DNA from: Bacteroidales bacterium
GTDB lineage: Bacteria; Bacteroidota; Bacteroidia; Bacteroidales; F082
DNA length: 34,463 nt
Direction: 5' to 3'
Assembly (NCBI GenBank): GCA_015489465.1
Contig: WFZS01000079.1
Location: 1 to 34,463, forward strand
Position 1 is the first letter of the stretch. Each line of letters opens with the position of its first letter. Both the position numbers and the translations under genes were made by a program. Of the stretch, positions 7,141 through 32,306 are shown in pieces. The notes beneath the pieces were generated by a model. The model was not told the DNA's origin. It saw only the letters and a list, made by a program, of their open reading frames with translations, and did no database searches.

Positions 7141-7761
7141 TTATCTCAATTTTATTATAAGTCCGGCTGTAAAATCACCTTGTATTATGGTTGAATATGA
7201 ATTAACACTCAAGCCGCAACCTGATCCTCCGGTACCTATTCCACACCATCCTCCCAAACCTGCAAATTGCATTGGCACCAATAATCTTCCTCTCAACATT
7301 AGTCCCAATTTTTCGGTAAAATATATCTTTGCTCCGCCACCTAATGCAGTGGAAAACCTCCAAACCGCCGAACGGTCTTCGGGAGCAAACCATGTTCCTC
7401 CCACGGATAACGATAAAAACGGGTAAATATTTTCGTTAACCGGAGCGCCTTTTATAACACCGATATGCAGGTAGTTAATATTTACATCTCTTACATCTTC
7501 ACTAAGTCCAAAACCTGGATAAGGTCTAAAATGACCTGTTGATTTTGTATGGCTGTATGTTAATTCAATACCGGGTAAACCATTACCTTTATTATAAATT
7601 AAAGACAATCCATAGGTTGCTCCGTCATCAAAATCTATCTTACCTTCGTAAAACTCCGCTTTTCCCGCAAGCATGTAACCTGCAAACGGTACTATTTCCT
7701 GTGATACTGCTTTATAAGTGGTTAATGACAACATTAATATAAACAAAGCATATTTCTTCAT
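7141..7761 (-). CDS. Small outer-membrane beta-barrel protein, function unknown
   Basis: A signal peptide of about 20 residues (MKKYALFILM..., ending AVSQ) precedes alternating short hydrophobic stretches and turns rich in Gly, Asn and Asp, as in eight-stranded OmpA/OmpW-like barrels. The 206-residue length fits such a barrel. The last strand (QGDFTAGLIIKLR) is amphipathic but ends in Arg rather than Phe, so the usual terminal beta-signal residue is missing. Two cysteines in WCGIGTGGSGCGL near residues 173-183 may form a disulphide in a loop; this segment matches no motif I know. It lies 93 bp upstream of the DUF2723 gene on the same strand. No specific function can be assigned. Confidence 0.7.
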   Translation of the reverse strand: MKKYALFILMLSLTTYKAVSQEIVPFAGYMLAGKAEFYEGKIDFDDGATYGLSLIYNKGNGLPGIELTYSHTKSTGHFRPYPGFGLSEDVRDVNINYLHIGVIKGAPVNENIYPFLSLSVGGTWFAPEDRSAVWRFSTALGGGAKIYFTEKLGLMLRGRLLVPMQFAGLGGWCGIGTGGSGCGLSVNSYSTIIQGDFTAGLIIKLR

Positions 7762-7907: not shown

Positions 7908-9179
7908 TTAAAAGAACGCTTTTTTTATTTCGTCAACTTTGTCAAGTTTTTCCCACGTGAAAAGTTCCACTTCCTTTTCTATTGTAATGACTTCTTTTTT
8001 GGAATAATCAAACATTTTGAATTTTTTTAAAACGGTTTCAGGTGTTCTACCCATATGGCCGTATGAAGAGGTTTCAAAATATATGGGATTCCTCAGTTTT
8101 AAATCCCTCTCTATCGCTGCGGGACGTAAATCGAACAACTGCTCAATTTTTTCCGCAATTTCTCCGTCGGTCATATCCACATTTGCCGTACCATTTGTAT
8201 TTACAAAAACGCCAACCGGTTCGGCAACACCTATTGCATATGACAACTGAACCAATATTTCATCGGCAATACCCGCCGCAACCATATTTTTTGCTATATG
8301 ACGTGCCGCATAAGCTGCAGAACGATCGACTTTTGAAGGATCTTTACCTGAAAAAGCCCCACCTCCGTGAGCACCTTTACCTCCGTAAGTATCAACAATT
8401 ATTTTTCTTCCCGTAAGTCCGGTATCTCCATGAGGCCCGCCAATAACAAACCTTCCGGTAGGATTAACATGATATTTGATATTAGTGTCAAAAAGCTTTT
8501 CGATATCGGTCCCTTCAAACCTCTTAACAACCCTCGGCATTAAAATATTAATAACATCATTTTTTATGGTTGATAACATCTCCGATTCATCTTCCGAAAA
8601 TTCGTCGTGCTGGGTGGAAACTACAATAGTTTCAATTCTTACGGGTTTATTATCATCTGAATATTCTATGGTAACCTGTGATTTTGAATCGGGACGCAAG
8701 TAAGTCATTTCCTTGCCTTCTTTACGGATTTTTGCAAGTTCTTCTACCAAAGCATGGGCTATTACTATCGGCAAAGGCATATAATTTTCAGTTTCATTGG
8801 TAGCATAGCCAAACATCATTCCCTGGTCACCCGCACCTTGAGCAAGAAGTTCACTTCTTTCGACACCTCTGTTTATATCCTCCGATTGGTCATGTATCGC
8901 CGTAAGTATTCCACAAGAATTGCCGTCAAACATATATTCGGCTTTATTATAACCGATTTTATTTATTACTTTTCTGACCTCTTTCATTACGTCAACATAG
9001 GTAACGGTTTTCACCTCACCGGCAACAATAACCTGACCTGTGGTTACCATAGTTTCGACAGCAACTTTAGAATCGGGATCAAAAGCAAGAAAATAGTCGA
9101 GTAAAACATCCGATATTTGATCGGCAACTTTATCGGGATGACCTTCGGAAACAGACTCCGAAGTAAATAAATAAGACAT
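7908..9179 (-). CDS. metK: S-adenosylmethionine synthetase
   Basis: MetK makes S-adenosylmethionine from methionine and ATP in the cytosol. All family marks are present: GHPDK near residue 13, signature one GAGDQG at 115-120, and the P-loop-like signature GGGAFSGKD at 272-280 followed by [10 protein letters not shown]. At 423 residues it is longer than the roughly 384-residue E. coli enzyme. Its C-terminal stretch ends in a charged tail ([15 protein letters not shown]). It is a single-gene unit with its own terminator. The leader on the minus strand carries a structure resembling the SAM-II riboswitch, which would give direct product feedback. Confidence 0.98.
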
Positions 9180-9200
9180 ATAAATTAATTTTTAATAGTT

Positions 9201-9222
9201 AAACACCTTTTGAATGGTATTT
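9201..9222 (-). promoter_or_regulatory. Hairpin in the metK leader, close to the start codon
   Basis: On the minus strand AAATACC (9222-9216) pairs with GGTGTTT (9207-9201), seven pairs with one U-G, around an 8-nt loop, ending 21 bases before the metK ATG. It is not followed by a T run, so it is not a terminator. It could act in the expression platform of the upstream aptamer, which is inference. Confidence 0.4.
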
Positions 9223-9241
9223 GATGATTGGCAGGCTAAAT

Positions 9242-9290
9242 ATTGTTTTAGCATTTTTTTGTGTGGTTGCAATCAATCAAATCCGTCCAC
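9242..9290 (-). ncRNA. SAM-II-like riboswitch aptamer in the metK leader
   Basis: The minus-strand RNA has the order of elements known from SAM-II: P1 5' strand GUGG (9290-9287), loop GAUUU (9283-9279), AUUGCAA (9273-9267), P1 3' strand CCAC (9266-9263), an A-rich loop, then AUGCUAAAA ending at 9246 and CAAU (9245-9242). GCA in the core can pair with UGC before UAAAA. AUUG at 9277-9274 can pair with CAAU at 9245-9242, closing the pseudoknot. From memory, the first alphaproteobacterial SAM-II example has GAUUU, AUUGCAA and GCUAAAAA in the same order but different paired bases, which would be covariation. Its place before metK supports SAM sensing. This is by eye and was not scored with a covariance model. 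Confidence 0.75.
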
Positions 9291-9291
9291 T

Positions 9292-9306
9292 CCGTAACTT
9301 TTACGG
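9292..9306 (-). repeat. Short hairpin at the 5' end of the metK leader
   Basis: On the minus strand CCGTAA (9306-9301) and TTACGG (9297-9292) form a perfect 6-bp inverted repeat with a 3-nt loop. It ends one base before the P1 stem of the SAM-II-like element and begins about where transcription should start. It may stabilise the 5' end or stack on P1. Confidence 0.45.
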
Positions 9307-9311
9307 TCCTG

Positions 9312-9340
9312 CAAATTTATAAAAATATTTTTAGCTCAAA
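9312..9340 (-). promoter_or_regulatory. Promoter of metK
   Basis: On the minus strand TTTG (9340-9337) is 17 bases from TAAATTTG (9319-9312). The spacer is a little short against the usual 19-21. It contains the perfect palindrome TAAAAATATTTTTA (9320-9333). The start of transcription would be near 9305, giving a leader of about 125 nt that includes the riboswitch-like element. The promoter begins eight bases after the gldA stop. Confidence 0.5.
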
Positions 9341-9348
9341 CTACTATT

Positions 9349-10266
9349 TCAACTATTTAACGTTAATGAGTGAAATACGTCTTCCATGCTTTGTTCCACT
9401 TGCATTAAGGAAAGAATATGTATGTTGTTATCCGTTGCAAAAACAAAAAGCGATTCACGAATGTCTTTTCCTTTTTCAGCCTCAACCAACCATTTCCCAT
9501 TCTCTTTTAAGGAAACATTAATAACAAACGGCAATTTTCTCAATAACGATTCATCAATCTCTTCTTTGAATTCAATTTCAAAGTAATTACCCGTTCCTGC
9601 ATATTTCCAAATATTACGTGTTGAATCATCGGCTATTACTTTACCTTTGTGAATTATCACCACCCTGTCGCATACCGATTCAACTTCTTGCATGATATGC
9701 GTGGAAAGTATCACCGTTTTTTCTTTACCCAACTCCGAAATTATATTTCTTATTTCAACAAGCTGATTAGGGTCGAGACCGGAAGTAGGCTCGTCTAGAA
9801 TCAAAATTTCCGGGTCATGAATCAAAGCCTGGGCTAACCCCACCCGTTGTTTATATCCTTTGGAAAGTTCTTCAATTTTTTTATGACTTTCGGGAGTTAG
9901 ACCCGTTAAATGAATAATTTCATCAACCCTGTCTTTTACATCAAATCCGGTTTTATATAACCGCAGTACAAACTCCAAATATTCCCTGACATACAACTCA
10001 CCGTAAAGCGGATTTAATTCGGGTAAATAACCTATACTTTTTCTGGGTGTAAGGCTATCTTCAAGTATATCTATTCCATTAATTATTACGCTCCCGGAAG
10101 TAGGAGTGATAAAGGATGTTATTATTTTCATCAAAGTCGATTTTCCGGCTCCGTTAGGACCCAGCAATCCTACTACCTCTCCTTTATTTATTGTGAGGTT
10201 AATATTGTCCAATGCTTTCTGAGTTCCGTATAATTTTGATACACCTTTTATTTCTATGGTATTCAT
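9349..10266 (-). CDS. gldA: Gliding-motility ABC transporter ATP-binding protein GldA
   Basis: This 305-residue ABC ATPase has Walker A GPNGAGKST at 36-44, ABC signature LSKGY at 134-138, Walker B ILILDEP at 154-160 and the H-loop in STHIMQEVE. The strings GYLPELNPLYGELYVREYLEFV, LTGLTPESHKKI, GLDPNQLVEIRN and STHIMQEVESVCDRV match GldA of Flavobacterium as I recall it, more closely than generic ATPases. GldA works with the membrane proteins GldF and GldG, a transporter needed for gliding in some flavobacteria and kept in many non-gliding relatives. gldF and gldG are not in this window. Its promoter overlaps the terminator of the gene upstream. Confidence 0.88.
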   Translation of the reverse strand: MNTIEIKGVSKLYGTQKALDNINLTINKGEVVGLLGPNGAGKSTLMKIITSFITPTSGSVIINGIDILEDSLTPRKSIGYLPELNPLYGELYVREYLEFVLRLYKTGFDVKDRVDEIIHLTGLTPESHKKIEELSKGYKQRVGLAQALIHDPEILILDEPTSGLDPNQLVEIRNIISELGKEKTVILSTHIMQEVESVCDRVVIIHKGKVIADDSTRNIWKYAGTGNYFEIEFKEEIDESLLRKLPFVINVSLKENGKWLVEAEKGKDIRESLFVFATDNNIHILSLMQVEQSMEDVFHSLTLNS

Positions 10267-32231: not shown

Positions 32232-32306
32232 CGGGGTGTGGCGCAGCCCGGTTAGCGCGCGTCGTTCGGGACGACGAGGTCGAAGGTTCGAATCCTTTCA
32301 CCCCGA
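32232..32306 (+). tRNA. tRNA-Pro (CGG)
   Basis: The cloverleaf is complete. The acceptor stem is CGGGGTG/CACCCCG, the D stem GCGC/GCGC, and the anticodon stem CGTCG/CGACG closes the loop TTCGGGA with anticodon CGG. The variable loop is AGGTC and the T arm GAAGG-TTCGAAT-CCTTT has one G-T pair. The discriminator is A at 32306. CCA is not encoded (the next bases are CAA), in contrast to tRNA-Phe in this window. The G after the anticodon is usual for tRNA-Pro. Confidence 0.96.

Follow-up and report, generated by a model that had tools for sequence, protein, structure and literature searches.

What does the leader of metK carry in this Bacteroidales genome, and by what route might it act on the gene behind it? 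The window, as we call the whole stretch of 34,463 nt that was analysed, had been predicted from its letters to hold a SAM-II riboswitch before metK, with a P1 stem GUGG/CCAC, the segments GAUUU, AUUGCAA and GCUAAAA and a pseudoknot AUUG/CAAU. All of these parts lie in the sequence where they had been placed, and the claim itself is borne out by the Rfam family RF01726 (66.9 bits versus a cut-off of 44) together with the assignment of the gene to TIGR01034 (Table 1).

Table 1. Features of the metK leader and its surroundings in the window.
Feature	Position	Strand	Basis
P1, 5' strand GUGG	9287..9290	minus	Rfam alignment, sequence, relatives
P1, 3' strand CCAC	9263..9266	minus	Rfam alignment, sequence, relatives
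Pseudoknot, 5' strand AUUG	9274..9277	minus	third pair covaries
Pseudoknot, 3' strand CAAU	9242..9245	minus	third pair covaries
SAM-II long-loop aptamer, RF01726	9238..9296	minus	model positions 1-60 of 60, 66.9 bits
Small hairpin CCGUAAAAGUUACGG between presumed 5' end and P1	9292..9306	minus	sequence and fold
Hairpin a, GCUAAA-ACAAUA-UUUAGC	9235..9252	minus	minimum-energy fold
TTTG, candidate –33 element	9337..9340	minus	sequence; 17 nt before –7 element
TAAATTTG, candidate –7 element matching TANNTTTG	9312..9319	minus	sequence
Putative anti-aptamer strand GCCAAUCAUCAAAU	9219..9232	minus	minimum-energy fold; complements aptamer AUUUGAUUGAUUGC (9282-9269)
CCAUUC, would extend the anti-aptamer helix onto P1 5' side GAGUGG (9292-9287)	9212..9217	minus	fold
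Hairpin c, AAAUACC-loop-GGUGUUU, overlaps anti-aptamer	9201..9222	minus	–6.0 kcal/mol, z –0.64, p 0.24
metK, methionine adenosyltransferase, 423 aa	7908..9179	minus	NCBIfam TIGR01034 equivalog, 508 bits, cut-off 309.4
gldA-like ABC transporter ATPase	9352-10266	minus	TIGR03522, 405.6 bits, cut-off 402.6
tRNA gene	2099-2171	plus	Rfam scan
tRNA gene	32232-32306	plus	Rfam scan

Identity and position of the aptamer

The metK leader segment is a SAM-II riboswitch aptamer of the long-loop form. The cmscan match on the minus strand at 9296-9238 has an E-value of 5.5e-11 over the whole window and 4.8e-13 over the local stretch, and it is the sole match to RF01726 in the genome with E≤0.001. RF01726 is also the only riboswitch reported among 4227 Rfam families, even up to E 10, and the conserved core positions of the aptamer agree with the consensus of the model. 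What did not hold was the choice of RF00521 as the model to match: this family is absent from the leader matches listed up to E 10 and gives no match at E≤0.001 across the genome, the latter being a weak negative, as none of 14 control genomes matched it either. The SAM/SAH family RF01727 likewise gave no match in the window, or in the leader up to E 10. Leader matches to KCNQ1OT1_3, SNORA50 and GlsR13 were set aside as chance-level.

The window aptamer is the same as the SAM-II long loops in full-length match, phylum and fold. The blocks GAUUU, UUGCAA and GCUAAA are, we assume, common to it and to RF00521 SAM-II, which sits on methionine genes such as metA or metZ, whereas the window aptamer sits on metK. 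One stem with a pseudoknot is also how the alphaproteobacterial SAM-II/metA element is described (PMC1273637).

Both helices are kept in related metK leaders, and among the sequences compared P1 and the pseudoknot covary. The count rests on 160 listed leaders, 9 of them repeats, hence 151 distinct ones, with L013 and L140 missed by the pattern. Most leaders were retrieved with a DNA pattern in which pseudoknot pairs 1 and 2 and the larger part of the core are already set; independent evidence therefore comes only from P1 and from pseudoknot pairs 3 and 4. P1 reads GUGG/CCAC in 99 distinct listed leaders, GAGG/CCUC in 46 and AUGG/CCAU in 2, and full pairing was found by script in 147/151; the remaining four (three CAGG/CCCU, one GAGG/CCCU) pair one base over, as judged by eye. 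The third pseudoknot pair is standard in 144 of the 151 and takes five forms (U-A 64, C-G 62, U-G 16, G-C 1, A-U 1; non-standard 7), while the fourth is looser than the third in the 160 listed leaders. Thus the score lies above threshold, for RF01726 instead of RF00521, and the pairings named in the original prediction are retained among relatives. Hairpin a is an alternative pairing of the 3' conserved strand of the aptamer and is variable among relatives, as judged by eye. Some aptamers also depart from the usual letters: in the metK leaders L156, L158, L159, L163, L164, L177 and L181 UUGCUUGCAACC replaces UUGAUUGCAACC, and L167, L172, L174, L185, L187 and L188 have AAUUUG for GAUUUG.

The gene whose 5' leader holds the aptamer belongs to methionine/SAM metabolism, and a promoter element stands just upstream of the aptamer. 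The candidate –7 element (9319-9312) lies 29 nt before the first base of the search-pattern match, and TTTG at 9337..9340 is presumably the –33 part of the Bacteroidota promoter consensus. In 167/180 distinct listed loci TANNTTTG is found no more than 70 nt upstream of the core, versus 6/180 in a control segment further upstream (191/204 versus 9/204 listed loci if repeats are kept). TAnnTTTG is given as the –7 part of the sigma-A consensus (PMC9723704). Given a Bacteroidota-type –7 element just upstream of it, the aptamer therefore probably stands right at the 5' end of the mRNA; the candidate transcript would begin a few bases past this element, close to the aptamer.

Occurrence of RF01726 before metK

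The original prediction implied that SAM-II on metK would be new in Bacteroidota, and this part has to be given up, since metK turned out to be the usual gene. RF01726 was found in 131 of 149 genomes of the window's taxonomic family, the window's own included. Among the 18 family genomes that lack it, 11 have no metK in the assembly, in five (G007, G016, G060, G122, G137) the contig ends within the metK gene or its leader, and two have a metK leader with no aptamer (G105 and G113). One of these two leaders, L223 (G113), keeps a pyrimidine tract resembling the anti-aptamer strand discussed below; the other is L221 (G105).

All 70 family loci checked (30 from the RF01726 family search and 40 fetched afterwards) have metK behind the aptamer, with the frame broken in one (L181). 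In a phylum sample, 45/296 genomes gave an RF01726 match, 41 of them above the cut-off, and metK starts close downstream in 29/29 loci examined, the window's own apart. A pattern scan of contigs for the aptamer yielded at least 120 stretches. Adding the first 31 loci and the window itself gave 152 listed matches, of which 147 have an ORF of at least 100 aa behind, the five with no downstream ORF being excluded; BLAST placed metK behind 141 of these 147, all three counts including repeats (the window twice, some contigs in both collections). Because of the family, phylum and listed-locus counts, metK control is the rule for the long-loop RNA and not an oddity. The window aptamer adds a further member to a described family, on the gene where that family usually sits, and nothing in it differs from RF01726. 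'SAM-II long loops' appeared in print in 2010 with the taxa 'Bacteroidetes, marine' (PMC2864571), and SAM-II in the Bacteroides group was reported in 2005 (PMC1273637).

Another protein follows the aptamer in the remaining 6/147 listed loci. The only one of the six that was scanned, the gene at L039, is an O-acetylhomoserine sulfhydrylase (TIGR01326); at L052, L054, L059, L105 and L132 a gene of the same type follows, by likeness of the first residues. Genomes with several matches contributed three extra places. L233 precedes metK and L234 gave no match. On one contig, L232 carries two full copies of RF01726, one at 694-753 with 60.2 bits and one at 7371-7430 with 64.4 bits, besides a partial copy at 43-79. 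The copy at 694 is followed by an ORF of 1995 aa that combines glycosyl hydrolase family 2 domains with a sorting tail for a secretion system and is overlapped at its start by a 170-aa ORF, and the copy at 7371 is followed by metK; judging by this order, the leader seems to have been duplicated, with a gene coming to lie between the copies. In the window, the gldA-like gene is the direct upstream neighbour of the metK leader, on the same strand. A piece of an ABC ATPase is also upstream at L232, and at L233 an ORF there resembles one.

A strand complementary to the aptamer

The metK start at 9179 is separated by 62 nt from the last base of the pseudoknot (9242). Among 161 listed leaders the spacer length is centred on the same value (median 62 nt, range 43-230), spacers >250 nt being left out. 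Folded with no constraint, the window leader is predicted not to form the aptamer, as CAAUCAUCAAAU (9230-9219) in the spacer pairs with aptamer AUUUGAUUGAUUG. This pairing stands out against shuffles (z –2.67, p 0.03), and the whole leader is not unusually stable (z –1.16). In many listed leaders the spacer holds a comparable pyrimidine-rich stretch that can base-pair with the 5' half of the aptamer. The target of 23 nt is common to them, but the part of it that is paired differs between lineages, with CAAUCA (9230-9225 on the minus strand in the window), UCAGUC or GUCAAAUC, as seen by eye.

Statistics across relatives point in the same direction. In 133 of 135 listed leaders (L014 and L059 were dropped, also from the accessibility test below), grouped into 70 clusters, the spacer pairs with the aptamer better than dinucleotide shuffles at p≤0.05 in 40 clusters, with a mean z of –2.0. 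With 41 stricter clusters from 161 listed leaders, 18 reach p≤0.05, 32 p≤0.2 and 4 lie above 0.5. Spacers also prefer their own aptamer: the pairing energy is –15.7 versus –13.7 kcal/mol with permuted aptamers and 0/20000 permutations are as good (70/20000 for the L1 part alone), in a test where clustering reduces shared ancestry and does not remove it. For 13 leaders with unusual L1 bases, six favour their own aptamer over both common forms (L106 and L120 are examples), two tie and five do not; among them, L013, which tied, and L140, which favoured its own, are out of register, and the count without them is five better, one tie and five not. These pairing statistics cover loci other than 13 family loci with a core off the search pattern and 29 phylum loci.

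Anti-aptamer strands are a common device of riboswitch expression platforms. Comparative statistics support such a role for the downstream strand, as the putative anti-aptamer of the platform. The platform may be the only part of this system not yet in print: we found no published description of a long-loop expression platform in the literature searched, Additional file 1 of PMC2864571 lying outside that search.

The complementarity might instead follow from base composition and shared ancestry and play no part in switching, with the true platform elsewhere. Purines dominate the 5' half of the aptamer and pyrimidines the spacer, and a pairing energy of about –11 kcal/mol is reached with shuffled spacers as well; moreover, 30/70 clusters miss p≤0.05 and the permutation test retains shared ancestry. 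Still, native pairing exceeds both dinucleotide shuffles and swapped aptamers, and separate lineages hit separate parts of the target, which makes this explanation decidedly unlikely in our judgement.

From aptamer to metK expression

We return to the anti-aptamer as the working reading. By analogy with the SAM-II family, SAM binding would hold the P1/pseudoknot fold. When SAM is lacking, the downstream strand CAAUCAUCAAAU...CCAUUC would pair with the 5' half of the aptamer and dissolve it; when SAM is bound, this strand would be freed and the leader would adopt a second state that lowers metK expression. SAM would thus switch the gene off, as product feedback on metK, a direction suggested by the pathway. 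We regard as quite probable the joint reading of a long-loop SAM-II RNA on metK in which an anti-aptamer competes with the aptamer and SAM lowers expression. If SAM is the ligand, GAUUUGAUUGAUUG and GCUAAAACAAU are expected to be protected in a SAM-dependent manner, with a much weaker effect of SAH.

What the second state might look like is suggested by a group of relatives. In 15 of the 110 listed leaders whose spacer does not exceed 70 nt, versus 1.4% of mononucleotide shuffles, a run after the pseudoknot can pair over at least 8 bases (8-12 in this group) with those just before the start codon. This start-covering helix varies in pairs at the same places (GUUGC/GCAAC, CUUGC/GCAAG, AUUGU/ACAAU, UUUAC/GUAAA, by eye), and where we looked the anti-aptamer sits in its loop. 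In MAFFT alignments of two leader groups some helix arms are out of register, therefore the arms were compared directly by script and no pair counts were taken from the alignments. Ten of the 15 sources are titled Flavobacteriaceae, four uncultured Bacteroidetes and one Candidatus Arcticimaribacter; going by isolate names, most would be marine. In these leaders the 8-12 pairs of the helix would, once the aptamer has folded, mask the bases before the start codon. As Bacteroidetes mRNAs are described as having no Shine-Dalgarno sequences, with translation tuned by structure and bases near the start (PMC6847099), such a helix would repress translation, which suggests for these 15 relatives a control of translation start that does not use a Shine-Dalgarno sequence. 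Only tentatively, at somewhat less than an even chance, do we put forward a Bacteroidota-wide version: the long-loop leaders would have a platform of their own in common, whose anti-aptamer and 5' aptamer half co-evolve, and in one lineage or more a helix covering the A-rich region before AUG would carry the anti-aptamer in its loop, so that SAM would control the start of Shine-Dalgarno-free translation. The leader set provides a concrete, mutable model of possible riboswitch action in a phylum that does without Shine-Dalgarno sequences.

A script scan for the start-covering helix found none in the window leader, and the predicted unpaired fraction of its start region (–12..–1) is 0.66 in the free and 0.72 in the aptamer-bound state, that is, accessibility does not fall. 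Across the 133 listed leaders, predicted accessibility of –12..–1 with the aptamer held falls by >0.1 in 45 and rises in 9; by cluster, it falls in 22/70 and rises in 6/70.

Other routes from ligand to gene have precedents in related RNAs. In direct occlusion the ribosome site would lie within the pseudoknot and be hidden on SAM binding, so that no alternative helix is needed; a review gives this mechanism for the SAM-II class, with alphaproteobacterial metX (PMC10907184). The RF00521 form has its ribosome site inside the pseudoknot, whereas in the window and its relatives the spacer given above keeps the pseudoknot far from AUG, and the described lack of Shine-Dalgarno sequences in the phylum also speaks against a hidden one; we hold this route to be very unlikely. 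Stopping of transcription with SAM, by hairpin c, by the freed strand or by Rho acting on the exposed C-rich, G-poor strand, deserves more weight and yet seems somewhat unlikely to us. Putative terminators are reported in many alphaproteobacterial SAM-II leaders (PMC1273637, PMC2258182), the anti-aptamer strand is pyrimidine-rich in most listed leaders by eye, and U-runs follow the pseudoknot in some relatives, e.g. L004 and L022; in the window, however, no intrinsic terminator-like site was found in 9150-9400. The ligand, too, could be SAH, or SAM and SAH alike, as in the SAM/SAH riboswitches (RF01727), small aptamers that precede metK in Rhodobacterales and are confined to that order as PMC2864571 describes them. 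The lack of an RF01727 match in the window, the Rfam scan in which RF01726 is the only riboswitch reported and the fit of the conserved core to its consensus leave this idea hardly any credit.

Taken alone, the part downstream of the aptamer shows only weakly unusual stability: the mean z over 40 clusters is –0.5, and 8 of them reach p≤0.05. Hairpin c, which is not significant in the window, is a weak candidate for the SAM-bound state there. The same hairpin is stronger in some relatives, namely L162, L029, L179 and L183.
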